Part shown: piece by piece, positions 1,896-40,038 of the stretch
Layout: every line of letters starts with the position of its first letter
Numbering within the stretch: position 1 is the first letter of the stretch
From: Deltaproteobacteria bacterium
Lineage (GTDB): Bacteria; Desulfobacterota; WTBG01; CAIYCZ01; CAIRTM01
Direction: 5' to 3'
NCBI GenBank assembly: GCA_024276465.1
Contig: JAJRXD010000013.1
Coordinates: 1-47,389, forward strand
DNA: 47,389 nt
Notes under the pieces: model-generated
Told to the model about the DNA's origin: nothing
The model's database searches: none
What the model saw: only the letters and a program-made list of their open reading frames with translations
Made by a program: the position numbers and the translations under genes

Positions 1896-2010
1896 GCGTC
1901 TCTTCTCCTTTTTTATTAATAGATCATCTTGTTCATTTGACAGCCATTGGTATAAAGAGCGGCCTCCCAAACTTCTTCTTCCCGAACTGCCTTATGATCC
2001 CCTGCCCTTC

Positions 2011-2086: not shown

Positions 2087-2355
2087 TAAATGTCCGTTTA
2101 ATCAATTTAACAGGATTGCTTTCTCTGTTCAGTGAGAAAACCGCGAGTGTAAGCTGGCTGAAAGACCTTCTCATCTGCAGGAAACACACGCTCACCCATG
2201 TCAGGCAGAAAAAATCATATGGATTACAAAAACCATGCTGAATAGAAATTTGTCAAATTGATAATATCAATATTGTCAATACTGTTAATTGAAATTATCA
2301 ATAATTAAGTTGTGTACAAACAAAAGATCATGGAGTCGGAAGCATGAACGGATTG
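2087..2355. other. AT-rich intergenic stretch with palindromic motif
   Basis: There is no credible gene here. The part 2250-2310 is very AT-rich. It holds ATTGAT-aat-ATCAAT and repeated TGTCAAT motifs that could bind a regulator of the minus-strand secreted-protein/porin pair. No clear -35/-10 pair was found. Confidence 0.3.
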
Positions 2356-3249: not shown

Positions 3250-3428
3250 ATTAAAATGTTTGTATTGTCTTTAATTGATTTTTTGTGTTGCTGTTTCAAT
3301 ATAATGTGAAATTGATTTTCAGGCAAGAATAATGTAATCTGAACTGGTATTACTGTCAGTGCAAGTAAAGCTTGTTTTAAGAAAAACAACCTGCTGTAAA
3401 ACAGCATAAACCATACCTGGACTATTCC

Positions 3429-4664
3429 ATGGACAACTATACCTGTAAACAATTCGGCAGCTTTAAAATTCTGATAAAAAACAGCCTTTTACCGGCCTGT
3501 TCGGATGAGCAGTGGAAGGATCTGTGCCATAGATTTTTCAGTGATAAAAACAGGGATGAAATCCAGAAAGAGGGCGAATACAAAACAATTTTCAAGACAA
3601 CTATAAATAAAATGCCCTGCATTATAAAAAAATACAGGAACAATGGTTTTATCAGAAAAACAAAATCCCCCTTCTTCCCCTCAAAGGCAATGAATGAATT
3701 TCATGCTGCTGTCAATATCCACAACAGGGGCATACCCACAGCTTCTCCGCTGTTCATTGCTGAAGAAAAAAAATGGGGATTTGTCAGCCAGAGCCTTGTT
3801 GCACTGCCCTTTCTTTCAGGAACGAAGGAATTGAAAGATATTTTTTTTAACATGAAATGTTTTTCTTTTCCTGCAAAAAGGAAAATTCTGGAAAGCTTTG
3901 GTAGTCTTACCGGAAAAATATTTCAGCAGGGAATTTTTCAGTATGACTACTCTCTGAACAATTTTCTGATTCGCAAAGAGCAGGAAAAACATCAGATATA
4001 TTTTATTGATTTTGAAAGAGTTAAAATAAAAACAGCAATTCCTGAATCGGAAAAGCTTTTCCTGCTTGCAAAGCTTAACCGTATAGGAAGGGAATTAAGT
4101 CTTGCTGAGCGCATGCGTTTTTTGCGAGCTTATCTGAAAGCAGATTCAAAGCCTGTACAAAACGTTAAAGCACTTGCCAAAAAGCTACAGAAAAAGACAG
4201 CCGAAATACTGAAAAAAGATCTGAAGCGGGGAAGGCTGACCAGTATTTATACGCACGGCAACTATGAAAGAATAAAGATAGGGCAGTATAATGGCCTCTG
4301 CAAAAAAGGCTATGACGCTGAGGATATAATCAGGCAGGCAAAAAATATCCCTGATGGCCCATACCCTGCTAACATATCTTTAAAATTTGAGGAATCAGAG
4401 ACTGTGTTAAAAGCAGTGCAATTTAAAAAGCATGATGCGGAAAAAGTATGGTCAATCATCAGCACGCTCATTATTGCAGGGCTCCCGATGGAACTGCCGC
4501 ATGTGCTTGTTCAGAATGACTGCCGCGGGTTTATAATAGCAGGACCTCAGACTTTTGAAAAGTTAAGGCTTTTAACCTGTTCACAAACACCTGTGCTTCA
4601 GTTCATTACAGATAATTTTTCGGATGCTTTTGAAAAACTGAAAGTTTTTATTAAAAATATGTGA
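3429..4664 (+). CDS. LPS (Kdo/heptose) kinase-like protein
   Basis: This encodes 411 residues. The N-terminal half resembles the WaaP/RfaP/Kdo-kinase branch of the protein-kinase fold. A Lys in CIIKKYR fits the ATP-binding position. QYDYSLNNFLI corresponds to the HxDLHxxNF catalytic loop, and IDFERV to the metal-binding DFG/DFE element. These enzymes phosphorylate lipid A inner-core sugars at the cytoplasmic face of the inner membrane. The C-terminal 150 residues contain a second, more degenerate repeat of the N-terminal region (KFEESETVLKAVQFK, then ELPHVLVQ). The 3' end overlaps the convergent radical SAM gene by 14 bp. The substrate cannot be told from sequence. Confidence 0.65.
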   Translation: MDNYTCKQFGSFKILIKNSLLPACSDEQWKDLCHRFFSDKNRDEIQKEGEYKTIFKTTINKMPCIIKKYRNNGFIRKTKSPFFPSKAMNEFHAAVNIHNRGIPTASPLFIAEEKKWGFVSQSLVALPFLSGTKELKDIFFNMKCFSFPAKRKILESFGSLTGKIFQQGIFQYDYSLNNFLIRKEQEKHQIYFIDFERVKIKTAIPESEKLFLLAKLNRIGRELSLAERMRFLRAYLKADSKPVQNVKALAKKLQKKTAEILKKDLKRGRLTSIYTHGNYERIKIGQYNGLCKKGYDAEDIIRQAKNIPDGPYPANISLKFEESETVLKAVQFKKHDAEKVWSIISTLIIAGLPMELPHVLVQNDCRGFIIAGPQTFEKLRLLTCSQTPVLQFITDNFSDAFEKLKVFIKNM

Positions 4665-5691
4665 ACCCGTTTTCTTTGCAGATGTGACAGACAGTCTTTT
4701 TCCAATTCTCCTTTAGTGCAAGCTCTCTTCTGGCTGAAATATAGGCCTCACCATTCCAGATTTTTTTAAAGCCTTCTTTAAAGGCATTTCCAAAGGAGTA
4801 TTTTTCTTCATAAACTGAGCAGCAGGGGAGCACAGTCCCGTCCCAGTTTATAACTGTCTCTTTCCATGGAAGAGAGCAGAAGTTCTTTTTCTGCTTTGCT
4901 TCTTTTTTATCCAGGTCAAATGCGCAGTATTTCGGGTCCTCAGGTATCCATTCGCGGTCACGATCAATTGCCTTTTCTGCAGACTCAAAAATTTCTTTTC
5001 CCATATCTGTGCGCATCTTGTTAATCCGTATTTCCACACCCATGTTCCGGGCTGTCCCGGAAGCTTTCTCAACTTCATGTTCATTATGGCGGAACACATG
5101 AAAAAGCCAGATAATCCGTGTGTTGCACTGATGGAGCTTTTTTTTTTCTTCTGTGAGGATTTTTATATTCTCCAGGACTGTGCTGAAATTTCCTCCGATA
5201 TGATACTTTTTATAAGTCATATCGCTTGCCCCGTCACAGGAGACAAAAATTTTCTGCAGGCCAGCTTCAAGCAGATCACGGGCTGTCTGCCTCGTAAGAA
5301 TATTCAGATTTGTGCTGATCGTAACTCCTGTTCCCCTTTCACGGGCATATTTAATCATGGGAATAAGGTGCTTGTTAAGAAGGGGCTCACCCCAATTGTA
5401 AAGACGAACAAGAACCAGGTCTTTTGCAAGTTCATCAATGATTTTCTTGTAGTTTTCAAAGGACATAAACCCTCTGGAAACCCCTTTGTCCTTTCTTCCG
5501 GTCGGACAAAGGGGACACTGAAGGTTGCAGATATTACCGGTTTCAATCGATATTCTGGTTGGAAGACAGTAGAGTTTTGAACTTTTCAGGTAAAGCTGAA
5601 CAGCACCCATAATAATATTATACAGTTTTTTCACGCTGAGAACCCTTAGTTCCTCCTGAATTTTTCCCATGATAGATGCTTTTTTTGCCAT
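4651..5691 (-). CDS. Radical SAM/SPASM domain protein
   Basis: This encodes 346 residues from the ATG at 5689-5691, which has an upstream AAAGGA. An earlier in-frame start at 5763 adds 24 basic, unlikely residues. The AdoMet [4Fe-4S] motif CNLQCPLC (Cys 55, 59, 62) is present. It is followed by the radical-SAM barrel phrases YNWGEPLLNK and ISTNLN. The C-terminal SPASM region holds further cysteines in FCSLPWK, VLPCCSVY and CHICKENG, expected to bind auxiliary Fe-S clusters. The layout fits the MoaA/PqqE/AlbE-like superfamily. No peptide substrate gene is adjacent, so it may instead act on a lipid or cell-wall precursor. Specific activity is unknown. Confidence 0.85.
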   Translation of the reverse strand: MAKKASIMGKIQEELRVLSVKKLYNIIMGAVQLYLKSSKLYCLPTRISIETGNICNLQCPLCPTGRKDKGVSRGFMSFENYKKIIDELAKDLVLVRLYNWGEPLLNKHLIPMIKYARERGTGVTISTNLNILTRQTARDLLEAGLQKIFVSCDGASDMTYKKYHIGGNFSTVLENIKILTEEKKKLHQCNTRIIWLFHVFRHNEHEVEKASGTARNMGVEIRINKMRTDMGKEIFESAEKAIDRDREWIPEDPKYCAFDLDKKEAKQKKNFCSLPWKETVINWDGTVLPCCSVYEEKYSFGNAFKEGFKKIWNGEAYISARRELALKENWKKTVCHICKENGFTYF

Positions 5692-5782
5692 ATAAAGTGG
5701 TCCTTTAACCCGGAATTTGCAGTAGAACCTTAATTTTTTATCTGACAACAAACAATTTTGCAAGAAATTATTAACATCTTTC

Positions 5783-5811
5783 TTGACACTTTTACTTAAA
5801 AATTCTATTAT
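5783..5811 (+). promoter_or_regulatory. Sigma-70 promoter for tRNA-Leu (and tig)
   Basis: TTGACA (5783-5788), a 17-bp spacer and TATTAT (5806-5811) form a near-consensus promoter 34 bp upstream of tRNA-Leu. Readthrough could also feed tig. Confidence 0.75.
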
Positions 5812-5844
5812 TTACAGTCTGGTTAGTGCGTTAAGCAGCAATCA

Positions 5845-5923
5845 GCGAGAGTGGCGGAATGGCAGACGCACTGGGTTTAGGACCCAGCGGGTAACCGTGG
5901 GGGTTCAAATCCCCCCTCTCGCA
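5845..5923 (+). tRNA. tRNA-Leu (anticodon TAG)
   Basis: The acceptor stem GCGAGAG (5845-5851) pairs with CTCTCGC (5916-5922), with discriminator A at 5923. The anticodon stem CTGGG/CCCAG encloses the loop TTTAGGA, giving anticodon TAG at 5878-5880. A class-II variable arm and the T-arm sequence GGTTCAAATCC are present. No CCA is encoded. It lies 21 bp before tig. Confidence 0.95.
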
Positions 5924-5943
5924 TTGAGGAAAAAGAGGAATAA

Positions 5944-7215
5944 ATGAAAGTAGACATTGCAAGTGTTAATGGCGCAGAAAAAAGGGTTACTGTCTCTCTG
6001 CCTTCTGAATTGGTAGACCGTAAAATTGACAGTGTATATCTGGATTTAAGAAAAAATGTCAGGCTAAAGGGGTTTCGCCCCGGCAAAGCACCTGTTTCCA
6101 TTCTTGAAAGATATTTCAAGTCCCAGGTTGAGGAAGATGTTATCTCAGGCCTTGTTAAAGATACTTATCCAAAGGCATTGGAAGAGGTAAATGCTTCTCC
6201 TGTTTCTCAGCCAAAGATTGAAAACAGTGTGCTTGAAAGGGGAAAAGATTTTTCCTACACAGCAGTCTTTGAGATAAAACCTGAAATTGCTGTTAAGGAT
6301 TACACAGGCATAGACCTTAACAGGGACATTGCAAATGAGGCAACTGATGCAGATGTTGAAAAGGAAATTGCAGCTTTGCAAAACAATTTTGCAACAATGA
6401 AAGATGTGGAGGATCGTGCCTGTAAAAAAGGAGATTATGTTGTAATTGATTTTGACGGAACAGTTGATGGCAAGCCATATACTGGAAACAGCCAGAAAAA
6501 CTTCTTCCTGGAAATCGCCGGGGATTCATTCCTGCCTGGATTTGAGGAGCATATAACCGGGCTTGAAAAGGGCATGGAGAAGACCTTTGCACTTGCCATC
6601 CCTGAAGATTTCCCGAACAGGGAGCTGGCTGGAAAAACAATAAAATTTAATGTTCTGCTGAAGGGAATAAAAGAAAAAATTCTGCCGGAGGTGGATGATG
6701 AATTTGCAAAGGACCTTGGCAATTACACTGGTCTTGAAGATTTAAAGGTTAAGATAAAAGAATCAATTGCCGAAAGAAAAATACGGGATTCAGAAGCCAA
6801 AATCAAGGAGCAGATTTTTGATGTTTTGATAGATAAAAACCCTTTTGATGTTCCAAAATCAATGATAGAAACACAAGTCCGGAATATGATTATGAACACC
6901 CAGCAGATGCTTGAAGCCAGGGGACTGAAACTTGAGGACATGGGCCAGTCCCAGGAACAGCTTTTTGAGCAATACAGAAAGCCTGCAGAACGTCAGGTGC
7001 GCTCAGCACTTCTTCTTGAGGCAATTGCAGAAGCTGAGGGCATTACAACCCAAGAGGATGATCTGGAAAAAAAATACAGGGAACTTGCTGAACAGATGCA
7101 TCAGGATGTAAACTCAGTCAAAGCAAAAATTACCAGAGAGATGTTACAGCCGCAAATACTTGAACAGAAGGCAATTGAACTGATTATTTCACAGGCACAT
7201 ATAACCGAAATTTAA
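5944..7215 (+). CDS. tig: Trigger factor (ribosome-bound chaperone, PPIase)
   Basis: This encodes 423 residues, close to the E. coli length of about 432. The N-terminal ribosome-binding domain has the signature FRPGKAP (around residues 45-51). The middle part (about 150-245) is the FKBP-type prolyl isomerase domain, with [10 protein letters not shown] and [14 protein letters not shown]. The C-terminal helical arms follow. It binds uL23 at the ribosome exit tunnel and shields nascent chains. The start ATG has AGAGGA 7 bases upstream. It heads the conserved tig-clpP-clpX-lon order, coupling nascent-chain folding with ATP-dependent proteolysis. Confidence 0.97.
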
Positions 7216-7295
7216 CATATATTTTCCATAATTTATTCCGGTTGCCCAAACCATATGTGAAGGCAAATGGAATTGGTCTGAAAAAGGAGCTTCCA

Positions 7296-7940
7296 TTGTA
7301 TACCTCACCAAAAACTGCTCAAAATCCGTACAATTCAATCCACACAACCCCTTCAATGCAGCTTATCCCCATGGTTGTTGAACAGACAAACAGGGGGGAG
7401 AGGGCATATGACATTTATTCCCGTCTTCTAAAAGACAGAATAATTTTCCTTGGCGGAGCTATTGATGATCATCTTTCAAACATTATCATAGCTCAAATGC
7501 TGTTTCTTGAATCAGAAGATCCGGAAAAAGATATCAACTTATATATAAATTCCCCTGGGGGTCATGTTACTGCCGGAATGGCTGTTTATGACACAATGCA
7601 GTATGTTAAGTGCCCGGTATCAACGCTCTGTTTCGGACAGGCTGCCAGCATGGGAGCACTGCTTTTGGCTGCAGGGGCAGAAGGCAAAAGATTTGCCCTC
7701 CCCCAGTCCAGGATACTTCTTCACCAGCCTATGGGAGGGTTTCATGGCCAGGCAACAGATATAGATATTCATGCAAAAGAAATAATCCGCATGAGGGAGG
7801 AGCTGGAAAAAATCCTGGTACACCACACAAAACAGACACAGGACAAGATTCACGAAGATACAGAGCGGGATTTTTTTATGAGCGGTGAAGAAGCAAGGCA
7901 GTATGGAGTAATCGATAAAGTCATCAGAAAAAGAGAATAA
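7296..7940 (+). CDS. clpP: ATP-dependent Clp protease proteolytic subunit
   Basis: This is the serine peptidase of the ClpXP/ClpAP machines, forming a double heptameric barrel. The nucleophile Ser lies in GQAASMGA, the His in LLHQPMGG, and the Asp further on near the HEDTERDF block. The start is uncertain. The ORF is open from a TTG at 7242. A TTG at 7296 has an AAAGGAG site six bases upstream and gives 214 residues with a short propeptide. The ATG at 7356 matches the mature family N-terminus ([16 protein letters not shown]) but has no ribosome site. I prefer 7296. It lies 80 bp after tig and 24 bp before clpX. Confidence 0.95.
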
Positions 7941-7964
7941 ATCTCAGAAAAAGAAAGTACAAAA

Positions 7965-9221
7965 ATGGCTAATAAAAAAAGTTCGGGTAAGCACAGTCAG
8001 CTCTTCTGTTCTTTTTGCGGGAAAAGTCAGGAGGAGGTAAAAAAGCTTGTAGCTGGTCCATCTGTTTATATTTGTGATGAGTGCATTGAACTGTGCAATG
8101 ATATTATCGCTGAAGAACAGGAGAGAGAAGTTCTGGCTGGGCGACATACATCTGTACCAAAGCCGCATGAAATTAAAAAATTTCTTGATCAGTATGTTAT
8201 TGGCCAGAACAAGGCAAAAAAAATTCTTTCTGTAGCAGTATACAACCATTACAAAAGGATTGATTACAGAAAAGGAAAAGAAGGGGTTGAACTGCACAAA
8301 AGCAATATTCTCCTTGTCGGGCCGACAGGAACAGGAAAAACACTTATGGCTCAGACACTTGCACGTTTTTTACATGTCCCTTTTACCATAGCTGATGCCA
8401 CATCTTTGACCGAAGCAGGTTATGTAGGCGAGGACGTTGAAAATATAATTTTGAGTCTTCTCCAATCCGCAGACTATAATATTGAGAAAGCCTCCAGCGG
8501 CATAGTATATATAGATGAAATAGATAAAATTTCCCGGAAGTCTGACACTCCTTCCATTACACGGGATGTCTCTGGCGAAGGGGTTCAGCAGGCTTTACTG
8601 AAAATAATTGAAGGGACCGTTGCAAATGTGCCTCCTAAAGGTGGGCGCAAGCACCCTCAGCAGGATTTTCTGCAGGTTGACACATCAAACATTCTTTTTA
8701 TATGCGGTGGTGCTTTTAATGGTCTTGACACTATAATTGAACAACGAACAGGAAAAAAAACAATTGGTTTCGGTACTGAAATCAAAAAAAACAAAGGGGA
8801 AAAAATAGGTGATATTCTGGCCGGGCTTCAGCCAGAGGATTTAATCAGATATGGTCTTATCCCGGAATTCGTAGGCAGGTTCCCTGTAAATGCTCCGATG
8901 GATGACCTTGATAAAGATGCACTTGTTGAAATTCTGACAAAACCCAAAAACGCTCTTATAAAACAATACCAGAAACTTTTTGAATTCGAGAATGCCAAAT
9001 TGCGGATCACACCGGAAACATTAGAGGCTGTTTCGGAAATGGCCATAAAAAGAAAATCCGGTGCACGCGGACTGAGAGCAATACTTGAGGATATAATGCT
9101 TGACATAATGTATGATCTTCCATCCCGCAACAATATTGAGGAATGTATAATAAACGAGGAAGTGCTTACTAAAAGAGGAAAACCTATTTTCGTCTACAGC
9201 AAAAAAAAGGAATCAGCATAG
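7965..9221 (+). CDS. clpX: ATP-dependent Clp protease ATPase subunit ClpX
   Basis: This encodes 418 residues. The N-terminal zinc-binding domain has CSFCGK and CDECIELC. The AAA+ module has Walker A GPTGTGKT, Walker B VYIDEID, the pore loop GYVGEDVE and the sensor-2 box GARGLRAI. The IGFG loop for ClpP docking is present (KKTIGFGTE). It unfolds tagged substrates and feeds them into ClpP. It ends one base before the lon start, so the pair is transcriptionally and probably translationally coupled. Confidence 0.97.
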
Positions 9222-28423: not shown

Positions 28424-29398
28424 ATGGCTTTAAAAATCAGGAGTACTTCAGTTTCGCTTAAAGAAATCAGTAAAGAGGAGATGTCCTTTGTTGTTACTGC
28501 AGGCAGAAGCATAAAAAGCCTTAAAACCTCAATAGCTAAAATTGGACTTGCAGCTCCCCCATACCTTGTTTTTTCTGAGGCAGATGGCTGTTACAGAATT
28601 GTTTGCGGTTTTTTACGCATCAAAGCTGTTACAGAGCTTGGATGGACAGAGGTGCCTGCAATGATTTTTGATTCCAAATCAGAGGAAGCTGAGCTGTTTC
28701 TGTTTTCGTTTTTTGAGAACCTTCCGCACAGAACATTTAATCCGGTAGAAAAAGCTAACATTGCTGAGAGGCTCCTTGAATATTTTTCTTAACAGATCAT
28801 AATTGAAACATATCTCCCACTTATGGGTCTTTCCCCGTCTGTCAGGGCAATGGATGACCTGCTGTCCATTATGAAGCTTGAAAACGAAATCAAGGAAGCC
28901 GTCATGAACGGAACCATAGCAGAAAAAAATGCAATCAGGCTTTCCCGGATGGAAAAAAACGACAGAATCTGTTTTTTCAGGATGTTTTGCAAGGTAAACA
29001 TGAGTTCCAGCAAGCAGGCAGAGATAATTGAAAACTGTTGTGATATAGCCCTCAGGGATAACATCTCCCTTAGAGATATTGCAGAAGACAGGGAGGTGGA
29101 GAGGATACTGGAGCAGGACTGTCTGACCCTGTCACAAAAGGGTGACAGCATCAGACAGTGGATAAGGTAAAAACGGTTTCCACGTCTCAGCAGTTCTGAG
29201 GAAAAATTTTTAAAGCTCAGAAAGAAACTTGACCTTCCGAAGAATGTTAAGATCACCCCGCCCCCATTTTTTGAAGGCGTGACCTGCAGCATACAGATTG
29301 ATTTTAAAACAGTTGAGGATCTGGTCAAGGCTGTGAAAAAGGTGAAAAAGGCGACCGTCTCTACAGCACTTAAGGAGTTTCTGGGGGGGAATCATTGA
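28424..29398 (+). pseudogene. ParB-like gene broken by two in-frame TAA codons
   Basis: One continuous frame of 325 codons is interrupted only by TAA at 28790-28792 and 29168-29170. Part 1 has the ParB N-terminal domain (IAKIGLAAPPYLVF, CGFLRIKAVTELGWTEVPAM, then FENLPHRTFNPVEKANIAER). Part 2 continues with the helix-turn-helix-like region (ETYLPLMGLSPSVRAMDDLL). Part 3 reads RFPRLSSSEEKFLKLRKKLD and VEDLVKAVKKVKKA to a TGA at 29396-29398. Both stops fit C-to-T changes of CAA. The last codons overlap the SPL gene start, as expected of an old operon. AAGGA precedes the ATG, and the first 122 codons could still be translated. Confidence 0.75.
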
Positions 29399-30489
29399 AC
29401 CATTTCATGCCGGAGAAGATTTTTGTAGAAGAAAGTGTAAAGAACCTGCCGTTTGCAAGGCAGGTTCTTGAGCGCTGCACAGGTTCCAGCGTTGAAACAG
29501 TTTCCAGCGCAAGAGAGTTAATCAGGTCTTTTCAAAAAAAAAGGGTGGCGGGTTTTGATGGAAAAAAAAATCTTCTGCTCTGCCAGAACAGGGGCCGGTT
29601 TCTTGAGCCCTGTCCAGGGACAAAAAAGCAGTATCTGTGCTGTGGCTATGCTATCCTGAACACTGGAACCGGATGTCCTTTGGATTGCTCCTACTGCGTA
29701 CTGCAGGCATATCTGAACAATCCTTTCATCACGCTTTTTGTTAACCGGGATGACATGATGGAAGAACTTGAAGCAAATGCTGCACTGATTAAGGGGAAAA
29801 TTGTTCGCCTGGGCACAGGTGAGTTTATGGACAGCCTTGCTCTTGAGCATCTGACAGGTTTTATTGCCTTTATAATGCCTTTTTTAAGAAAAAGGAAGCA
29901 GACAGTGCTTGAGCTGAAGACAAAAACCATTCATATTGAAAACCTGCTTGGCCTTGATCACGGCGGGGCAATTATTGTTTCATGGTCCCTTAATACTGAG
30001 GAGATAATACAAAGCCAGGAGAGGGGTACAGCACCTTTAAAGAGAAGGATATCTGCTGCATGCAGGATGATCGGAGATGGCTACAGGGTGGGCTTTCATT
30101 TTGACCCCTTGATATTTTATCCTGGCTGGGAAGACGGCTATAGAAGTGTTGTAGATTTGGTAGCAGAAAGCATCCCTCCATCAAGCATATCATGGATAAG
30201 TATCGGCTCCCTGCGCTACATGCCTCAGCTGAAAAATTCAGCGTATAAACGCTGGCCTGACACCAGAATCTTTTCTCAGGAATTTATTCCCGGGCTTGAT
30301 GGAAAGATGCGTTATATGCAGGATATAAGGGTTGAGATGTATTCGAAAATGACCGGGTGGCTGAGAGCATACTCTGAAGGACTTTTTATATATTACTGTA
30401 TGGAAAGCATGGATGTGTGGGATAAAACCCTTGGCTTTGCCCCATCATCCAATGCAGAGCTGAAAAAACTTATGGATCAGAGGCTTTAG
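29395..30489 (+). CDS. SPL-family radical SAM protein (spore photoproduct lyase-like)
   Basis: This encodes 364 residues. The radical SAM cluster motif is CPLDCSYC (Cys 94, 98, 101), as in spore photoproduct lyase. Flanking phrases are GTGCPLDCSYCVLQAYLNNP and VRLGTGEFMDSL, with the C-terminal SPL region VRVEMYSKM-like (IRVEMYSKM). The start is probably the TTG at 29395 with GGGGGGA upstream; an ATG follows at 29407. SPL repairs UV thymine dimers in dormant spores. Relatives in non-sporulating bacteria, often next to ParB-like genes as here, may repair DNA or do something else. The partner ParB-like gene is broken. Confidence 0.85.
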   Translation: MNHFMPEKIFVEESVKNLPFARQVLERCTGSSVETVSSARELIRSFQKKRVAGFDGKKNLLLCQNRGRFLEPCPGTKKQYLCCGYAILNTGTGCPLDCSYCVLQAYLNNPFITLFVNRDDMMEELEANAALIKGKIVRLGTGEFMDSLALEHLTGFIAFIMPFLRKRKQTVLELKTKTIHIENLLGLDHGGAIIVSWSLNTEEIIQSQERGTAPLKRRISAACRMIGDGYRVGFHFDPLIFYPGWEDGYRSVVDLVAESIPPSSISWISIGSLRYMPQLKNSAYKRWPDTRIFSQEFIPGLDGKMRYMQDIRVEMYSKMTGWLRAYSEGLFIYYCMESMDVWDKTLGFAPSSNAELKKLMDQRL

Positions 30490-30821: not shown

Positions 30822-31832
30822 ATGAGACTTCCACGATTTGAATATGTAAAGGCATCAACAACAGGCGAAGCCCTGGCAGCACTGCAGGCAGGTGACGGGC
30901 AGACCCGGATTCTTGCGGGCGGCACAGACCTTTTGGTAAATATGAAATACCGCATAGAGCGGCCGGCAACAGTGATAGGGATCAGGACAATTGATGAGCT
31001 GTGCTCGGTGACAACGGGTTCTGACGGGTCGCTGCATCTGGGCGCAGGCGTCACGCTGAGCAGTCTTGCTGAAAACAGCCTTATAAAAGAGAGCTGTCCT
31101 GGCCTGGGCAGGGCCATAACAGCGGTAGGCTCAAAGCATATACGCAATATGGGTACCATAGGTGGCAATGCATGTCTGAACACCAGGTGCTGGTACTACA
31201 ATCAGTCGCAGCTGTGGCGGGATGCGAGGGAGGTGTGCCGCAAGGCGGGCGGGAATGTGTGCCACGCCATCAATGGCTCAGAGCGCTGCCACGCGATTAA
31301 CAGTTCAGATACGGCACCGATGCTGGTGGCTCTGGATGCAGAAATGGTGATACAGAACCGGGAAGGGGAGCGGCGGGTGTTAGCCCGGGAATTTTACCGG
31401 AATGACGGGGTGAGGTACAATGCTCTTGAGCCGGAAGAGATGTTAAGCAGGATAGAGATACCGCGTGGAAACACTGAGCGCAGGACAGCGTTTATCAAGA
31501 TTTGCAGCCGCAGGGGGCTTGATTTTGCCATGGCAAACATAGGGGCAGCAGTTAGTGTGAAGGCAGGCAGGTGCTCACAGGTCAGAATTGTTATAGGAGC
31601 TATTGCGTCACATCCTCTGATTCTGGAGAAGACTGCGGCAGTGGTGGAGGAGGGCGGCTTGAGCGAGGGGGGCATGGAGCAGGCAGCCGATACAGCGCGT
31701 ACAGAGTTAGGGACGCTTACAAATCTGTTTAGCAGCGCAGGGTACAAGCGGCAGCTGGCGCAGGTGCTGGTAAAGCGGGTATTACAGGAGCTGAAGGGAA
31801 GCAGCAGGAATAAAAGGAGGGCAGGGAAATGA
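30822..31832 (+). CDS. Mo-hydroxylase FAD subunit with extra [4Fe-4S] insertion
   Basis: This encodes 336 residues. It binds FAD through ILAGGTDLLVNM (about 30-41) and the loop GTIGGN, as in the CoxM/XdhB family. Residues 123-156 hold an insertion with Cys 123, 139, 147 and 156. The spacing (15, 7 and 8 residues between) is that of the [4Fe-4S] ligands in 4-hydroxybenzoyl-CoA reductase beta subunit, with the same CWYYNQSxxW and SSDTAP surroundings. It likely passes electrons between flavin, [2Fe-2S] and an external partner. It overlaps the next gene by 4 bp. The substrate of the complex is unknown. Confidence 0.88.
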   Translation: MRLPRFEYVKASTTGEALAALQAGDGQTRILAGGTDLLVNMKYRIERPATVIGIRTIDELCSVTTGSDGSLHLGAGVTLSSLAENSLIKESCPGLGRAITAVGSKHIRNMGTIGGNACLNTRCWYYNQSQLWRDAREVCRKAGGNVCHAINGSERCHAINSSDTAPMLVALDAEMVIQNREGERRVLAREFYRNDGVRYNALEPEEMLSRIEIPRGNTERRTAFIKICSRRGLDFAMANIGAAVSVKAGRCSQVRIVIGAIASHPLILEKTAAVVEEGGLSEGGMEQAADTARTELGTLTNLFSSAGYKRQLAQVLVKRVLQELKGSSRNKRRAGK

Positions 31833-32323
31833 AAAGGATGATAACACTGCAGGTAAATGGCGACACCTGCGAAGTGGCGGTAGAGCCATGGCATACGCTT
31901 CTTGATGTGCTGCGTGATCAGTTGCGTCTGACCGGGACCAAGAAGAGCTGCGGGATAGGGACATGCGGGGTGTGTACAGTAATTATGGATGGCCTGGCGA
32001 TACTATCCTGTTTGAAGCTGGCAATAGAAAGCCAGGGGCATGATATAACAACCATAGAGGGCCTTGGCAGTGCTGATGAATTAGACCCTGTGCAGCAGTC
32101 ATTCATAGAGCATGGTGCGATTCAGTGCGGATTTTGTACACCCGGGGTGATTATGAGCGCGAGGGCACTGCTGGATAAGAATCCCCAGCCGAGTGATGAG
32201 GATGTCCGGGAGGCGCTGTCAGGGACATTTTGCCGGTGCACAGGCCACATCAAGACAATTGAGGCGGTGAAGCATGCAGCGGAGAAGCAGGCAGGAGCGG
32301 GGGGCACAAGTGATGGTCAGTAA
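31829..32323 (+). CDS. Mo-hydroxylase 2x[2Fe-2S] subunit
   Basis: This encodes 164 residues, the normal CoxS/HcrC/XdhC-small-subunit length. The plant-type [2Fe-2S] domain has Cys 41, 46, 49 and 61 (CGIGTCGVC then C). The four-helix second-cluster domain has CGFC (100, 103) and CRC (135, 137). It carries electrons from molybdenum to FAD. Overlaps with both neighbours (4 bp upstream, 11 bp downstream) show tight operon coupling. Confidence 0.95.
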   Translation: MKRMITLQVNGDTCEVAVEPWHTLLDVLRDQLRLTGTKKSCGIGTCGVCTVIMDGLAILSCLKLAIESQGHDITTIEGLGSADELDPVQQSFIEHGAIQCGFCTPGVIMSARALLDKNPQPSDEDVREALSGTFCRCTGHIKTIEAVKHAAEKQAGAGGTSDGQ

Positions 32324-34583
32324 GTACAGCGTGGTGGGGCAGAGGCATCCGAGACTTGACGGAAGGCAGAAGGCAACAGGACGTTCTGAGTTCAGTGATG
32401 ACGTGTATTTGCCGGGGATGCTGCATGGGAAGATTGTGAGGAGCTCGATCCCGCGGGGCAGAATAGTCAACATAGACACCTCCAGAGCAGAGCAACTGCC
32501 GGGAGTCAAGGCGGTTATTACCCATAAAGATACGGGTGGGCTTATGCCCGGACCTGATACTGTGCTGCTATGTGATGAGATGGTTAATTATTTTGGTGAC
32601 GAAGTTGCCGCGGTAGCGGCGGTGGATGAAGACACGGCGGCTGAAGCAGCAGAGCTGATTAAAGTAGAATATGAGCCAATGACACCGCTTTTTTCCATGA
32701 AAGAAGCCATGGCCGAAGGGGTTCCCCCTATTCACAATTATATAGAGGACAACTGTGCCGATGATATTTCAATGGCATTTGGCGATGTTGACAAAGCATT
32801 TTCAGAGTCTGAACATATACGCACTGACGAGTATGTCATTCATCCTTCTCACAGCTCTTTTGCAGAGCACCATGTTGTGGTTGCAGATTATTCCCTTCCG
32901 GAAAAGCTGACGGTCTGGACCCCTGTACAGTCTTCCGCGATTATTCAAATGAGTTTAGCCCAGAATTTCGGGCTTTCCTCAAGTAATGTCAGGATTATGA
33001 ACCTGAATACCGGTGGTGCTTTCTGCGGCAGAGGATCAGAAAGACCGCACCATTACATTGCCGCTATTCTCTCAAGAAAAACTGCAAAGCCGGTAAAAAT
33101 AATATGCACTGCTGATGAGGAATTTATTATTTACCGGGGTGGTGGAAAATACAATTTTACTTTCAAAACCGGTGTAATGAAAGATGGCAGGCTGAAGGCA
33201 ATAGAGGCTGATCTTCTGCATGATTGCGGCCCTTATGTGGAAACTCAGTTTATCATGCTGCGCTTTACCGGGTTTCAGCTTCAGATGCTCTATAAAGTGG
33301 AAGCCTCAAAATTTACAGGAAAGCTTGTGTATACAAACAACCCACCCTACTTTTTCCACCACGGGGCAGGACTTGTGGCCATGCGGTTTGCCTTTGGTGC
33401 GCAGCTTGATGCCATAGCAAAGGATTTAGGGATTGACCCAGTGGAGATAAGGCTGAAAAATGCCGTAGATAAAGGTTATACAACCTTAAGCGAAATGCAT
33501 TTTGCCAGCTGCGGTTTAAAGGAATGCATACAAAAAACAGTAAAAAAATCAGGCTGGAAGAAAAAACATGGAAAACTTCCTCCCTACAGGGGGATTGGTA
33601 TTGGATGCGGTGTATTGCGTGCCGGTGGAAAAGGCATGTTTGATCATGATACATCAGCTGTATTTATCAAGATAGATGAGGACGGAAAAGTCTCACTTGT
33701 TACTGGTTTACCGGACATGGGGCAGGGCTCACATACTGCCATGGCTATCATTGCAGCTGAAAGCCTGGGGATAACCCCTGAGGATATTAAAGTAATTGCA
33801 GGTGATACTGATATTACTCCCTTTGATGCCGGAGCAATTTCCCAGAGAGGAACATTTACCACAGGTAATGCTGTTAAGAATGCCTGTAGTGATGTCAAAA
33901 AGCAGCTTGGTAAAACAGCTGCAACAGAGATGGGTGTTAAACCATCCGAGCTTGTTTTTAAAGATGGAAAAATTTTTTCCAAAGGCAAACCTGAAAAAGC
34001 CATATTATTTGAGGATGCAGTATATAACACCCTTCATTCTTCTGAGGGCAGATTTGTCATGGGCAGAGGCTTCTATAATCCCCCGACAGAGGGCGTTTCC
34101 GGTGGAGATTATAAAGGCAACCCTGCACTTGCTTACTCCTTTGGAGCCCAGATAGCAGAGGTGGAGGTTGACCCTGAAACCGGGATAGTAAAGCTTCTTA
34201 ACATGACGGTTGCCCATGATGTTGGCCGTGCCATAAACCCCATGGCAGTAGAGGGACAGCTGGATGGGCAGGTTTTCAGCGGTATGGGGCAGACGCTGTT
34301 TGAAGAATGCATCATGGAAAATGGACGGGTATTGAACCCGTCTCTGCTGGATTACAAGCTGCCCAGACCTTTCGAAGTGCCCGGGATTGAACATATTATT
34401 GTAGAGACTAATGACCCATATGGACCTTTCGGAGCAAAAGAAGTGGGGCAGGGTCCTATCCAGTGTACTTCACAGGCAATAGCTAATGCTGTAAGCAATG
34501 CGATTGGACACCATATAAAAGAACTTCCCATAACCCCCGAACGAGTATTAGAGGCAATCAGGCAGAAAAATAAAAACCAGTAG
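32313..34583 (+). CDS. Mo-hydroxylase catalytic subunit, paralog 1 (Glu-to-Gln)
   Basis: This encodes 756 residues from the ATG at 32313; an ORF start at 32274 would overlap the iron-sulfur gene more. It contains the aldehyde-oxidase/xanthine-dehydrogenase a/b hammerhead (TGRSEFSDDVYLPGMLHGKI) and the molybdopterin-binding domains (NTGGAFCGRGSERPHH, then PDMGQGSHTAMA, ISQRGTFTTGNA). At the C-terminal catalytic site, where the family has Glu (as in the VGE motif), this protein has Gln 713 (KEVGQGP). The loop GGAFCGRG departs from the usual GGGFGGK. It may be inactive, structural or specialised. A highly similar paralog follows 104 bp later. Confidence 0.88.
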   Translation: MVSKYSVVGQRHPRLDGRQKATGRSEFSDDVYLPGMLHGKIVRSSIPRGRIVNIDTSRAEQLPGVKAVITHKDTGGLMPGPDTVLLCDEMVNYFGDEVAAVAAVDEDTAAEAAELIKVEYEPMTPLFSMKEAMAEGVPPIHNYIEDNCADDISMAFGDVDKAFSESEHIRTDEYVIHPSHSSFAEHHVVVADYSLPEKLTVWTPVQSSAIIQMSLAQNFGLSSSNVRIMNLNTGGAFCGRGSERPHHYIAAILSRKTAKPVKIICTADEEFIIYRGGGKYNFTFKTGVMKDGRLKAIEADLLHDCGPYVETQFIMLRFTGFQLQMLYKVEASKFTGKLVYTNNPPYFFHHGAGLVAMRFAFGAQLDAIAKDLGIDPVEIRLKNAVDKGYTTLSEMHFASCGLKECIQKTVKKSGWKKKHGKLPPYRGIGIGCGVLRAGGKGMFDHDTSAVFIKIDEDGKVSLVTGLPDMGQGSHTAMAIIAAESLGITPEDIKVIAGDTDITPFDAGAISQRGTFTTGNAVKNACSDVKKQLGKTAATEMGVKPSELVFKDGKIFSKGKPEKAILFEDAVYNTLHSSEGRFVMGRGFYNPPTEGVSGGDYKGNPALAYSFGAQIAEVEVDPETGIVKLLNMTVAHDVGRAINPMAVEGQLDGQVFSGMGQTLFEECIMENGRVLNPSLLDYKLPRPFEVPGIEHIIVETNDPYGPFGAKEVGQGPIQCTSQAIANAVSNAIGHHIKELPITPERVLEAIRQKNKNQ

Positions 34584-34618
34584 TTTGAGATGCCCCATTC
34601 CTGGCAAAATAATTTTCT

Positions 34619-34665
34619 GCAATATCCGGGTTTAAAAATACTGCAAATCGTAAGCAAGGCGTCCT
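34619..34665. repeat. Partial copy of the AACCCGGA repeat
   Basis: TATCCGGGTTT followed by TACTGCAAATCGTAAGCAAGG resembles the end of the inverted-repeat element at 2011-2086 and a fragment near 5706. It lies between the two catalytic-subunit genes. Confidence 0.35.
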
Positions 34666-34687
34666 GAAAACCACAGAAAGTTAAAAA

Positions 34688-36940
34688 ATGGCCAGAAAAA
34701 GTAATCCATACAGTGTAATAGGCAGGCGGCAGCCAAAGCTTGACGCTCCTCTCAAGGCAACAGGACGTTCAGTATTTAGCGATGATGTGTATCTTCCGGG
34801 AATGCTCCATGGGAAGATACTCAGAAGCACCATCCCCAGGGGAAAGATACTCAACATTGACACATCGCAGGCAATGCGACTGCCTGGTGTGAAAGCAGTA
34901 ATTACCCATAAAGATTCGGGTGGTATTATGGCAGGGCCTGATCAGCAGGTGCTCTGTGATGATCAGGTCTGTTATGTTGGCGATGAAGTCGCAGCTGTAG
35001 CAGCGATTGATGAAGACACTGCAATAGAGGCGGCAGAGCTCATTAAAGTTGAGTATGAGCCCATGCAGGCAGTTCTCACTATAGAAGAAGCTGTTGCAAA
35101 AGGAGCGCCTGTATTGCACCAGTACTTTGAAGATAACTATGCAGATGAGAAAGATTTAAAGTTTGGTGATACTGAAAAAACATTTGACGAGTCCGATCAT
35201 ATAAGGACCGATGAATTTACCATCAACCCGACGCACAATTGTTTTGCGGAGCTGCATCTTGCACTTGTCGATTACTCCATGCCTGACAAGCTTACCATCT
35301 GGACACCCAATCAAACAGCAATTCTTATTCAGCAAAGCATGGCAACGAGCCTTGGTATTTCTCAAAGCAAGGTCAGGGTCTGCAGCCTTAACACGGGAGG
35401 AGCTTTTTCCGGGAGGGGAACAGTCAGACCTCACCATTTGATCGCTGCACTTCTTTCCCGCAAAGCAGCAAGACCGGTGAAAATTATGGCTGATGCTGAT
35501 GAAGAGTTTATTATTTGCAGGTCGGGAGGCAGAGACAAAATTGTTTTAAAAACGGGTGTAAAAAATGACGGCACCCTGAAAGTCATTGAAGCAGATTTTA
35601 TGCATGACTGTGGTGCCTATGTTGAGACACAGTTTATCATAATGACTATTGTCAGTGCAAACCTGCAAATGCTTTTTAAACTTGAAGCCATGCGTTACAG
35701 GGGAAGACTTGTTTATACAAACAATGCTCCCTGTTTTTTTCATCATGGTGGAGGGATTGTACCGGCCCAGTTTGCCTTAGGTCAGCATCTTCATTGTGTG
35801 GCACACGACCTGGGTATAGATCCTGTTGATTTCTACCTCCATAATGCTGTAGGAAAAGGACATACAACACTCAGTAAAACTTATTATGCCAGCTGTGGTT
35901 TAAAGGAGTGTATACAAAAAACCGCCAAAAAATCAGGCTGGAAGAAAAAGTATGGGAAACTTCAGCCTTACAGAGGTATTGGGATAGGCTGCGGAGTGAT
36001 GAGCTCCGGCGGCAAGGGGATGTTCCAGCATGATACATCTGCTGCTTTTCTTAAAATAGATGAAGATGGCAGGCTTTCTCTTTTTACCGGTCTGCCTGAC
36101 ATGGGGCAGGGTTCGCATACCACTATGGCAATGATTGCTGCAGAAACACTCGGGATAAGTGCTGAAGATATAACGGTTGTATCCGGAGATACAGATATTG
36201 CGCCATTTGACGTAGGAGCATTTTCGCAGCGGGGTACATTTACCACGGGCAATGCCGTTAGAGCAGCATGCAGGGATGCTAAAAAACAGCTTGAAAAAAC
36301 AGCTTCACAAAAACTCGATGTTAAGCCGTCATTACTGGTTTTTAAAGATAATAAGGTATATCCCAGGGGCTTCCCTGAAAAGGCCATTTCATTTGAAGAT
36401 ATTGTTTTTGATACGCTGCACTCCCAGGAGGGGAGATACGTAATGGGGAGAGGTTTCTATAATTCACCCACCCAAAAGCCTGCCCTTGCTTATTCCTTCG
36501 GGGCCCAGATTGCAGAGGTGGAGGTAGATCCTGAAACAGGCATAGTAAGACTCCTCAGAATGACAGTGGCCCATGATGTTGGCCGGGCCATAAATCCTCT
36601 GGCTGTGGAAGGCCAGATGGATGGACAGGTTTTCAGCGGAATGGGACAGACGCTGTTTGAGGAACGTCTGGTTGAAAATGGTCAGGTTTTAAACCCTTCT
36701 ATGGCAGGGTATAAGAACCCCCGGCCTTTCGAAGTACCTGAGATTGAACATATTATTGTTGAAACCATTGATCCTTATGGTCCTTATGGGGCCAAGGAGG
36801 TTGGGGAAGGCCCTATTGCGTGCGTTCCCCATGCAGTAGCAAATGCTGTGAGCAGTGCTGTAGGGTACTGTTTCAGGGAACTTCCCCTTACTCCTGAAAG
36901 AGTATTAGAGGCAATCAGGAAAAAAAACAGACAGCAATAA
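34688..36940 (+). CDS. Mo-hydroxylase catalytic subunit, paralog 2 (Glu present)
   Basis: This encodes 750 residues, close in sequence to the preceding gene along its whole length (for example GRSVFSDDVYLPGMLHGKI, NTGGAFSGRG, PDMGQGSHTTMA and KNPRPFEVPEIEHIIVET). Here the expected catalytic Glu is present, E707 in KEVGEGPI. It is the likely active molybdopterin subunit of the complex formed with the FAD and [2Fe-2S] proteins. Only a weak ribosome site precedes it, and the 104-bp gap holds a repeat fragment. The pair is a tandem duplication followed by divergence. Confidence 0.9.
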   Translation: MARKSNPYSVIGRRQPKLDAPLKATGRSVFSDDVYLPGMLHGKILRSTIPRGKILNIDTSQAMRLPGVKAVITHKDSGGIMAGPDQQVLCDDQVCYVGDEVAAVAAIDEDTAIEAAELIKVEYEPMQAVLTIEEAVAKGAPVLHQYFEDNYADEKDLKFGDTEKTFDESDHIRTDEFTINPTHNCFAELHLALVDYSMPDKLTIWTPNQTAILIQQSMATSLGISQSKVRVCSLNTGGAFSGRGTVRPHHLIAALLSRKAARPVKIMADADEEFIICRSGGRDKIVLKTGVKNDGTLKVIEADFMHDCGAYVETQFIIMTIVSANLQMLFKLEAMRYRGRLVYTNNAPCFFHHGGGIVPAQFALGQHLHCVAHDLGIDPVDFYLHNAVGKGHTTLSKTYYASCGLKECIQKTAKKSGWKKKYGKLQPYRGIGIGCGVMSSGGKGMFQHDTSAAFLKIDEDGRLSLFTGLPDMGQGSHTTMAMIAAETLGISAEDITVVSGDTDIAPFDVGAFSQRGTFTTGNAVRAACRDAKKQLEKTASQKLDVKPSLLVFKDNKVYPRGFPEKAISFEDIVFDTLHSQEGRYVMGRGFYNSPTQKPALAYSFGAQIAEVEVDPETGIVRLLRMTVAHDVGRAINPLAVEGQMDGQVFSGMGQTLFEERLVENGQVLNPSMAGYKNPRPFEVPEIEHIIVETIDPYGPYGAKEVGEGPIACVPHAVANAVSSAVGYCFRELPLTPERVLEAIRKKNRQQ

Positions 36941-36976: not shown

Positions 36977-37780
36977 ATGGGCAATATCAGAGTTGTTGTC
37001 AGAGGTGGCGGTGATATGGGAACCGGGGTTGCACACAGGCTTTACAAGAGCGGTTTTTGTGTCACTGTGCTGGAAATAGAGCAGCCTGTTGTCATAAGAA
37101 GAAAAGTTGCTTTTGCTCAGGCAGTATTTGATGGTCAGGTGGTTGTGGAGAATGTAAAAGCCGTTAAAGCAGCCGGCAGCAGGGAGATAGAGGATATAGT
37201 AATGGCTGGAGCTGTCCCGGTTTTAGTTGACCCGAATTGCACTGTTTTGCAGGACAGCGGGTCAGATGTCTTTATAGACGCTACATTATCAAAAAAAAAC
37301 ACAGGTGTACATCGGGACATGGCACCCATTACCATTGCTTTGGGGCCTGGCTTTAAAGCCGGGGAAGATGTGGATGCTGTCATTGAAACCAATCGGGGAC
37401 ATGCCCTGGGAAAAGTTATATATGAAGGCTATGCTGAACCGAATACAGGGGTGCCGGAGGCTGTTAAGGGATATACTGAAGAGAGGGTTCTCAGGGCGCC
37501 ATGTGACGGCATTGTTCGTAATGCTGTTGAGATAGGCAATGTCATCCGGAAAAGCGATGTGGTATGCTGTGTTGACAAAACGCAGGTTCTTGCCGCAATT
37601 AATGGTGTTCTCAGAGGTGTAATAAGGGAGGGGATGCAGGTTAAGAGGGGTTTAAAAATCGGTGACATCGACCCAAGGGGAGTTAAAGAATATTGCTGTT
37701 TGATATCGGATAAAGCCAGGGCAGTTGCCGGAGGAGTTTTAGAAGCAATACTGCATTTGAAAAAGACTGAAAAATTATAA
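36977..37780 (+). CDS. yqeB: Selenium-dependent Mo-hydroxylase maturation protein YqeB
   Basis: This encodes 267 residues. It opens with a Rossmann-type loop VVRGGGDMGTGVAHRL. It contains the family stretches EIEQPVVIRRKVAFAQAVFD, DATLSKKNTGVHRDMAP and VLRAPCDGIVRN, the last with a conserved Cys. YqeB-family proteins occur only with selenium-dependent molybdenum hydroxylases and are thought to help place a labile selenium on molybdenum. Position directly after the two catalytic subunits, followed by xdhC and yqeC, supports this. It is the best single marker that this hydroxylase uses selenium. Confidence 0.88.
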   Translation: MGNIRVVVRGGGDMGTGVAHRLYKSGFCVTVLEIEQPVVIRRKVAFAQAVFDGQVVVENVKAVKAAGSREIEDIVMAGAVPVLVDPNCTVLQDSGSDVFIDATLSKKNTGVHRDMAPITIALGPGFKAGEDVDAVIETNRGHALGKVIYEGYAEPNTGVPEAVKGYTEERVLRAPCDGIVRNAVEIGNVIRKSDVVCCVDKTQVLAAINGVLRGVIREGMQVKRGLKIGDIDPRGVKEYCCLISDKARAVAGGVLEAILHLKKTEKL

Positions 37781-37813: not shown

Positions 37814-38605
37814 ATGGATATTTTTGAAGAAATTATTGCAGTAAAAAATGCCGGTACATCAGCGGTTCTGGCAACAGTTGTTGAAGTGATAGCGTCAGCT
37901 CCGGGCAGGCCCTGTGCAAAAATGCTTATTAAAGCTGATGGTTCCATTACAGGCACTATAGGGGGTGGTGCTGTTGAAAAGAAAATTGTCGATGAAGCGA
38001 TGGAAATAATGCATGGCACTGAATCTAAACTGCTGCGTTATAATCTTGAAGATATCGGTATGTCCTGTGGCGGGTCTATGGGTGTTTTTCTTGAACCTCT
38101 AAAGAATGCCCCTGATTTAATCATTTTTGGCGCAGGGCACATCGGACGTGCTTTAAGCAAAACAGGCAAAATGATAGGGTTCACCACAATCGTTGCTGAC
38201 AACCGCCCTGAGTTTGCCAATAAGGAGCGATTGCCATGGGCTGATAAAGTCTTAGCCAAAGACTATGAGAAGTTACTGCCAGAGCTTGTGCTTTCAGAAA
38301 ACACGTATCTTGCAATTCTTACGCATAAACATATCCATGATTTTGAAGTTCTGGAGTATTGTGTGCGCCAGCCCTTTTGTTATCTTGGTATGATCGGCAG
38401 CCGCAATAAAGTGGCAAAAGCTTTGCAGCAATTAAAAGATAACGGGATAAGCGATGAGGCCATAGGGCGCATTCATGCCCCGATAGGCCTTGGTATCGGG
38501 GCAAACACTCCGGATGAAATAGCAGTGTCAATTGCTGCGGAACTAATAGCCGTAAGAAGCGGAGCAGATGTTGCCAGCCTGAAAATGGCTAAAAAAAGCC
38601 GGTAG
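37814..38605 (+). CDS. xdhC: XdhC/CoxI-family molybdenum cofactor maturation protein
   Basis: This encodes 263 residues. The N-terminal XdhC/CoxI domain has SAPGRPCAKMLI, TIGGGAVE and SCGGSMGVFLEP. The C-terminal Rossmann domain has LIIFGAGHIGRAL, ADNRPEFANKERLPWAD and GMIGSRNKV. XdhC proteins bind the molybdenum cofactor and insert its sulfurated (or here perhaps selenated) form into the hydroxylase. It lies in the maturation part of the SDMH operon, 33 bp after yqeB. Confidence 0.93.
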   Translation: MDIFEEIIAVKNAGTSAVLATVVEVIASAPGRPCAKMLIKADGSITGTIGGGAVEKKIVDEAMEIMHGTESKLLRYNLEDIGMSCGGSMGVFLEPLKNAPDLIIFGAGHIGRALSKTGKMIGFTTIVADNRPEFANKERLPWADKVLAKDYEKLLPELVLSENTYLAILTHKHIHDFEVLEYCVRQPFCYLGMIGSRNKVAKALQQLKDNGISDEAIGRIHAPIGLGIGANTPDEIAVSIAAELIAVRSGADVASLKMAKKSR

Positions 38606-38696
38606 ACTCCTTCGCTTTTGACGGATCTTTCCTTCTTCTCATTTTCACGATTGATAGCAGTTTCATAGCCAGACAGTTTTTTTGCCAGGTGATAGT

Positions 38697-39449
38697 ATGT
38701 ATATCTATAAGGCTTTGGACATAGATCTTGGTAAGCAGGAGTTAATATGCTTTGTCGGTGCTGGCGGCAAAACCACAGCAATGTTCTGCCTGGCAAAAGA
38801 ATTGAAAGGCCGGGGTAAACGTGTTCTTGTTACGACAACTACCGCAATATTATCTCCTGATGAGGATACTTGTGATGCAGTAATAATTGATGCTTCTAAA
38901 AACAGCGATGTTTTTTCAGGCCAGCAGAAAAGCATGATCATTGTTGCCGGCAGGGAACGCTCTTCAGAAAATAAACTGCTGGGCATGGACAGGCAGTTTA
39001 TCAGCATACTGTTTGGCAGGGGTTTATTTGACTATGTGCTTGTAGAAGCTGACGGTGCACGTCACAAGTCTGTCAAAGCACCCGCTGCTTACGAGCCGGT
39101 CATACCCTGTGCGACTACTAAAATTGCCGGGGTTATAGGCCTTGATGTTTTGGGCAAACCTATTAGCAGTGAATATGTTCACCGCCCCGAAATTTTCAGT
39201 AAGGTAGTGGGCAGTACAATAGGAGCCAGGATAGATGAGAGTACAATATTTCGTATCATTGTTTCAGAAGAAGGTCTTTTCAAGGCAGCGCCGCAAAACT
39301 GCCAAAAATATCTGCTGCTCAACAAAGCTGAAAATGATGACAAAAAAAAAGCAGCGAAAAACATTATTGAACTGCTCAAAAAAGCTGATATCATCTGCAG
39401 CGGCTTTATTGTAGCCAGCATGCACAACAGCAGATTCGAGAGATTGTAA
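38697..39449 (+). CDS. yqeC: Selenium-dependent hydroxylase accessory protein YqeC
   Basis: This encodes 250 residues from the ATG at 38697 with AGGTGA upstream; a TTG at 38682 has none. A P-loop, CFVGAGGKTTAMF, opens the fold. VTTTTAILSPDE, VLVEADGARHKSVKAP and the ending MHNSRFERL match the putative ATPase YqeC, found beside YqeB in selenium-dependent hydroxylase loci. Its exact chemistry is unproven. Confidence 0.88.
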   Translation: MYIYKALDIDLGKQELICFVGAGGKTTAMFCLAKELKGRGKRVLVTTTTAILSPDEDTCDAVIIDASKNSDVFSGQQKSMIIVAGRERSSENKLLGMDRQFISILFGRGLFDYVLVEADGARHKSVKAPAAYEPVIPCATTKIAGVIGLDVLGKPISSEYVHRPEIFSKVVGSTIGARIDESTIFRIIVSEEGLFKAAPQNCQKYLLLNKAENDDKKKAAKNIIELLKKADIICSGFIVASMHNSRFERL

Positions 39450-39465: not shown

Positions 39466-40038
39466 TTGATTACCGGTATTATTCTGGCATCGGGTTTGGC
39501 AAAAAGGATGCAAAGAGAAAAGCTTTTGCTTGATGTTGGAGGCATGCTAATGGTAGAGAGGGTTATTAGCGCTGCTGCAGGTTCAAAGCTTGACGAGGTG
39601 ATTCTGATTTACCGAAGAGATGAGATCAGAGAGATAGCAAAGCATTACAGTATAAGGTCTGTCTATAACGGCAAGTCACAGGAAGGCCAAAGCGCAGCAA
39701 TGAAGCTGGGGATTGCCATGTCAGGTCCTGATACAGATGCATTTATGTTTCTGGTTGGGGACCAGCCGTTTCTTAATATTAAGACTATTAATACATTGAT
39801 TGAATGCTTCAAGCAGGGGGATTCTCCCATAGTTGCTCCTTTGTATCAGGGTCGAAGAGGCAATCCAGTAATATTTTCTTCTGCGCTAAAACAGGATTTG
39901 CTTGGTATTGAAGGGGACCGCGGCGGTAGAATGCTGATTGAACGTATGCCGGAAAAGGTGAAACTGGTTCCGATCGAGGAAAGCATCGAGGGGTTGGACG
40001 TTGATACTCCGGAGGTCTATAATTCGGTCAGCCACTAA
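39466..40038 (+). CDS. mocA: MocA-family molybdenum cofactor cytidylyltransferase
   Basis: This encodes 190 residues. It is a nucleotidyltransferase with the N-terminal loop ILASGLAKRMQREKLLL, VYNGKSQEGQSAAMKLGI and VGDQPF (metal-binding Asp), and an ending DVDTPEVY. The family (MocA/YgfJ) makes molybdopterin cytosine dinucleotide, the cofactor form of such hydroxylases. The start is a TTG at 39466 with GGAGGGAGG in front. It is the last gene of the cluster and overlaps the convergent SGNH gene by 4 bp. Confidence 0.92.
   Translation: MITGIILASGLAKRMQREKLLLDVGGMLMVERVISAAAGSKLDEVILIYRRDEIREIAKHYSIRSVYNGKSQEGQSAAMKLGIAMSGPDTDAFMFLVGDQPFLNIKTINTLIECFKQGDSPIVAPLYQGRRGNPVIFSSALKQDLLGIEGDRGGRMLIERMPEKVKLVPIEESIEGLDVDTPEVYNSVSH

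Follow-up and report, generated by a model that had tools for sequence, protein, structure and literature searches.

To our knowledge, the active-site Glu of the XO family of molybdenum enzymes is regarded as indispensable. During hydroxylation this residue activates the Mo-bound oxygen, and the same Glu has been proposed as proton donor in a reductive reaction, that of nitrite (PMC10420851). In the mouse AOX1 variant E1265Q, activity was undetectable while 60% of the Moco was retained (PMC2671166). Judging from this variant, a subunit with Gln at the catalytic site would be expected to bind cofactor and not to perform base-catalyzed hydroxylation. Two further described systems come close to the locus reported here, namely 4-hydroxybenzoyl-CoA reductase (4-HBCR; HcrABC, PDB 1rm6) and the selenium-dependent Mo hydroxylases with YqeB/YqeC. 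No description of a natural loss of the Glu or of tandem Mo subunits, in the selenium-dependent systems or elsewhere, was found in the literature searched, which was mainly open papers.

The operon and its cofactor maturation genes

The window, by which we mean the whole 47,389-nucleotide stretch of DNA analyzed, contains an operon in which Pfam and NCBIfam profiles identify the following genes in this order:

30822..31832, + strand: FAD subunit, 4-HBCR beta-like (Pfam FAD_binding_5 and CO_deh_flav_C; best PDB match 1rm6_B)
31829..32323, + strand: [2Fe-2S] subunit, gamma (Pfam Fer2_2 and Fer2)
32313..34583, + strand: Mo subunit 1 (Mo1), Gln type, XO family, 4-HBCR alpha-like (Pfam Ald_Xan_dh_C, MoCoBD_1 and MoCoBD_2, all over cut-off; 756 aa counted from the MVSKYS start)
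34688..36940, + strand: Mo subunit 2 (Mo2), Glu type (Pfam domains; 750 aa)
36977..37780, + strand: YqeB, selenium-dependent Mo cofactor maturation (NCBIfam TIGR03309, 354 bits against a cut-off of 220)
37814..38605, + strand: XdhC-like, XdhC-family maturation factor (Pfam XdhC_C and XdhC_CoxI)
38682..39449, + strand: YqeC, selenium cofactor biosynthesis (TIGR03172, 198 bits against a cut-off of 73)
39466..40038, + strand: MocA-like molybdopterin cytidylyltransferase (Pfam NTP_transf_3; TIGR03310 at 179.6 bits, slightly below the cut-off of 186.45)

The domains of Mo1 and its large-subunit fold place it in the XO family. AlphaFold models of Mo1 and Mo2 are confident (pLDDT 89.7 and 89.0), and the Mo1 model superposes on 1rm6_A with Z 45.2 and rmsd 1.9 over 748 residues; its matches to XO-family chains (Z 34-46 over 690-750 residues) are silent on activity. 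The top PDB sequence match of Mo1 is 4-HBCR, at 450 bits versus 290 for the next. The FAD subunit likewise has all four cysteines of the extra [4Fe-4S] cluster (Cys122/138/146/155, aligned with 1rm6_B), as do all five sampled orthologs. Differences from 4-HBCR are the presence of two Mo subunits, Gln at the Glu726 position in one of them, Cys or Ser at the Gly246 position and His at the Arg358 position. Scores also fall below the NCBIfam 4-HBCR equivalog cut-offs for alpha (663.5/994.55 bits), beta (241.7/404.55) and gamma (167.8/257.8), so we refer to the locus as 4-HBCR-like and not as 4-HBCR. Since the extra [4Fe-4S] cysteines are kept, electron flow toward a reductive reaction is possible. 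The first-pass annotation had described a single hydroxylase, a term which is perhaps too narrow given that the nearest relative of known structure is a reductase.

As in the selenium-dependent Mo hydroxylases, YqeB, YqeC, XdhC-like and MocA-like genes lie downstream of the Mo genes and SelD is encoded in the same genome (383 bits). With YqeB and YqeC scoring over their cut-offs and SelD present, a selenium-dependent Mo cofactor is indicated, selenium being predicted here from genes, and the MocA-like gene implies an MCD cofactor. By its gene content, the locus encodes a molybdenum enzyme of the XO family, 4-HBCR-like in type and probably selenium-dependent.

Apart from the maturation genes, the genes flanking the operon vary among genomes. 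In the window, a spore photoproduct lyase-like gene lies upstream of the operon (29395-30489), preceded by an ORF with a ParB_N domain (28424-28792). The SelD gene of the window's genome (G000:C42:28437-29360) contains one in-frame TGA, which is likewise found in five related genomes (G005, G006, G008, G012 and G013) and suggests a SelD that may contain selenocysteine. In G013, YqeB follows an ABC-transporter ATPase domain in a fusion that adjoins a permease gene (L039 4983-6551) and may be a transport-linked variant of this selenium/molybdenum maturation factor.

Gln713 and the Mo pocket of the Gln lineage

Mo1 and Mo2 are 69% identical and are separated by an intergenic gap of 104 bp (34584-34687). 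EVGQGPIQC in Mo1 stands opposite EVGEGPIAC in Mo2 in a region aligned without gaps, and in a phmmer alignment residue 713 of Mo1 pairs with Glu726 of 1rm6 chain A (4-HBCR alpha). Thus, the catalytic Glu that is a hallmark of the XO family is absent in Mo1 and present in Mo2. The first-pass annotation had reported Gln in the first paralog and Glu in the second, 104 bp downstream, and its residue numbers, codons and spacing proved exact. Active-site contacts were assigned via sequence alignment and general knowledge, and the positions discussed below are:

33024..33026, + strand: Cys238 of Mo1, codon TGC, in GGAFCG; Cys throughout the Gln lineage and Ser throughout the Glu lineage
33360..33362, + strand: His350 of Mo1, codon CAC, at the family-invariant Arg of the MRGxG loop; His in 11/11 members of both lineages
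33837..33839, + strand: Ile509 of Mo1, codon ATT; Ile throughout the Gln lineage and Phe throughout the Glu lineage
34449..34451, + strand: Gln713 of Mo1, codon CAG, at the catalytic-Glu position (Glu726 of 1rm6_A), by phmmer and Mo1/Mo2 alignment
36806..36808, + strand: Glu707 of Mo2, codon GAA, the canonical catalytic Glu, by Mo1/Mo2 alignment

Full-length Gln-type orthologs were identified in G013, G005, G010 and G004 with 70-75% identity to Mo1 of the window, giving a set from uncultured bacteria which, with the window, spans five genera in three families. A sixth sequence of the lineage, from G014, ends ahead of the residue-713 site and is not counted. The motif EVGQGPIQCT[ST]QA is found in all five, while the six Glu-type sisters have EV[GA]EGP. 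Gln is therefore fixed in 5/5 sequences, and the Glu-bearing orthologs of Mo1 that would have spoken against its fixation were looked for and none were found among these five. A sequencing or assembly error at this one codon, which the draft state of the assembly (181 contigs) might have favored, has a negligible probability: CAG recurs in four other independent assemblies among differing synonymous neighbors, and this difference in codon context rules the error out.

Nor is Mo1 decaying. Of 56 residues invariant in 15 canonical relatives, the Gln lineage retains 47 and the Glu lineage 44. Pairs of Gln-type sequences have a dN of 0.14-0.19 with dS about 2 or saturated, and Glu-type pairs are alike; as NG86 dS is saturated, the safe statement is limited to dN being far below dS. 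Both lineages are under strong purifying selection, and the intact frames together with dN well below dS rule out a pseudogene. Gln713 is real and conserved, and these observations point to a specialized, still functional active site.

Only seven positions (14, 17, 181, 238, 496, 509 and 713) show fixed differences between the five Gln-type and six Glu-type sequences. Three of these fall inside Mo-pocket motifs, namely 713 (Q/E), 238 (C/S) and 509 (I/F), each given as Gln/Glu lineage. The probability of finding three of seven in the pocket by chance is about 0.0005-0.004, if the pocket, assigned by alignment rather than coordinates, comprises 20-40 of 750 residues. At position 238, within the GGxFGG motif, 20/20 sampled relatives have Gly; position 509 lies in what we take to be the loop flanking Mo, comparable to the Ala1078/Ala1079 region of bovine XO. 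His replaces Arg in the MRGxG loop of both subunits (residue 350 in Mo1, 353 in Mo2), Arg being found in 20/20 sampled relatives, and is a clade-specific pocket change common to both Mo lineages. The change at 713 is identical to that in mAOX1 E1265Q, and at the equivalent catalytic position. However, the mouse variant is engineered and inactive with the substrates tested, whereas the Gln of Mo1 arose naturally, is fixed and comes with further changes in the pocket.

A maximum likelihood tree of 32 sequences recovers the Gln-type clade with 98% bootstrap, separate from five Glu types (97%). From G013, the Glu-type sequence attaches beside the Gln clade, though weakly supported (71%). The Mo pair would be the product of an old duplication, and the simplest history suggested by the tree would be a single change from Glu to Gln in the ancestor of the Gln-type sequences. 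Among 17 genomes of the class, both types co-occur in five, one genome that is 73% complete has only the Glu type, and one that is 59% complete has only a truncated Gln type (Fisher P = 0.005, merely indicative as the genomes are related). All five genomes with a full-length Gln copy also have the Glu type.

These results come from one class and five Gln-type sequences in draft genomes, with searches that covered one phylum and exact-pattern scans. Among 395 genomes of the phylum, a pattern search detected the Gln motif in seven. Five of these belong to the Gln clade; the others, G050 and G208, have an unrelated single-Mo lineage with Gln, so the motif is not unique to this class. In a wider contig scan with exact 8-residue patterns, only two class members matched, which does not show absence elsewhere, and a search of plasmids returned solely relatives below 60% identity.

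Electron-transfer subunits and the role of the Gln subunit

The first-pass annotation proposed that the altered subunit was a specialized, chaperoning or decoy partner, or that two alternative complexes share the same FAD/Fe-S subunits. Sharing of FAD and Fe-S genes by two Mo subunits is supported by gene counts in these draft genomes. The window's genome (G000, 95% complete) has one XO-type FAD gene, one Fe-S gene and two Mo genes, and the [2Fe-2S] subunit gene of the window is the sole Fer2_2 gene in the assembled genome. The same counts were obtained for G013 (98% complete) with its split Glu-type gene, located on two contigs that overlap by exactly 141 bp, counted once. Gene order in G013 is FAD-FeS-Mo(Glu)-Mo(Gln), and Mo(Gln) starts 14 bp upstream of the Mo(Glu) stop codon, a 17-bp overlap with the stop codon counted. 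Operons with the order Mo(Glu)-FAD-FeS-Mo(Gln) and one FAD/FeS set are found in G004 and G010.

In G005, separate FAD and FeS genes accompany each Mo subunit, the Gln set being assembled from contigs C40 (FAD) and C3 (FeS-MoGln) joined by a 174-bp overlap at 99.4% identity. This set is the strongest argument for a Gln subunit that joins electron transfer. Together with equal purifying selection and the 47/56 versus 44/56 residues retained, it makes a pure decoy or chaperone less likely, and this part of the original proposal has lost ground.

On balance, we lean toward a Gln subunit that would be redox-competent, with altered chemistry or an altered substrate, taking turns with the Glu subunit, or pairing with it, on FAD/Fe-S components that both use. 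A single FAD/[4Fe-4S] subunit and a single [2Fe-2S] subunit would serve both types of Mo subunit. Following duplication, the Gln lineage would have altered its Mo pocket (Gln 713, Cys 238 and Ile 509) and then held it constant. The Gln subunit presumably binds Mo cofactor and could catalyze a reaction, or accept a substrate, that can do without Glu as general base. A reductive or dehydroxylating step in which protons are delivered differently would be one example. The canonical step would fall to the Glu subunit. The single electron wire could serve both through alternative alpha-beta-gamma complexes or through a dimer that combines alpha(Q) with alpha(E). We put forward more tentatively, as possible rather than probable, that the locus represents a natural two-Mo-subunit XO-family enzyme in which the Gln subunit would do Mo redox chemistry without the Glu base beside a Glu subunit, along a shared FAD/[4Fe-4S]/[2Fe-2S] chain.

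The main rival is a mixed dimer with a silent, cofactor-loaded Gln subunit as the catalytically dead pseudoenzyme half of alpha2, which would tune or stabilize the Glu half. Such an inactive subunit has a precedent in mAOX1 E1265Q with its retained Moco, and would fit both the invariable company of a Glu type in genomes with a full-length Gln copy and the overlapping Mo genes of G013. We nevertheless consider it rather unlikely, as FAD and FeS genes of its own, found for the Gln gene of G005, would be superfluous for a dead partner, the pocket residues changed and then froze instead of drifting, and relatives lacking the Glu occur on their own with complete redox sets. Still less probable are two canonical isoenzymes acting on different substrates, with Cys238 or a nearby acid replacing the base and the chemistry unchanged. 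Fixation of Cys238 solely in the Gln lineage would suit this, as would the unusual HHG loop that both lineages have instead of MRG; yet Gly is invariant at 238 in the relatives and Ser occupies it in the Glu lineage, so Cys238 may be mere packing, and no precedent for such compensation was found in the literature searched. A non-redox chaperone or decoy for cofactor delivery is very improbable. The Gln gene does share an operon with maturation genes, but these (YqeB, XdhC, YqeC and MocA) are dedicated factors already in place, the full-length fold and the conservation are those of an active subunit, and G005 again provides the Gln gene with its own FAD/FeS set. A Gln lineage that is natural, under strong selection and, in G005, equipped with electron-transfer subunits of its own would mean that the family either does Mo chemistry without the base or employs a dedicated partner that does not hydroxylate, and either outcome would alter the annotation of Glu-less members.

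Other relatives with tandem Mo genes or without the Glu

Outside the clade, 15/20 sampled relatives have Glu at the catalytic site. Elsewhere in the phylum sample it is replaced by Met (G036, G023 and G021), by Leu (G037 and G028) or, in the unrelated lineage, by Gln (G050 and G208). The loci concerned, together with a further tandem pair, are:

L060 6539-10379, L061 8197-11964, L053 6638-8926 and L054 7167-9824: Met/Leu lineage without the catalytic Glu or the pocket Gln
L051 6418-11780 and L052 6220-10276: a further Gln lineage, unrelated to the first, with the motif GQGPLLPVIPA and one Mo gene in the order FeS-Mo-FAD
L056 (G021:C523) 1-5287: independent tandem pair, FeS-Mo(Glu)-Mo(Met)
L055 (G039:C413) 1804-7966, minus strand: further tandem pair, FAD-FeS-Mo-Mo

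Complete single-Mo gene sets of Glu-less type are present in G023, G028 and G208, so a stand-alone arrangement is compatible with absence of the Glu; by locus, the stand-alone sets are L060 (Met), L061 (Leu) and L051 (Gln). In L060 and L061 the Met/Leu lineage comes with FAD and FeS genes of its own. The Met-type set in L060 lies beside genes of the class-III aminotransferase and saccharopine-dehydrogenase-like types, and a gene for a UbiD-family decarboxylase adjoins the second Gln-lineage set in L051. In the tandem pair of G021, the Glu type has the motif GAKGVGEPG and the Met type GAKEAGMSI, with Ala replacing the conserved pocket Gln. The second Mo subunit of the G039 pair has Thr at this pocket position and carries the motif YGHKGGGE.
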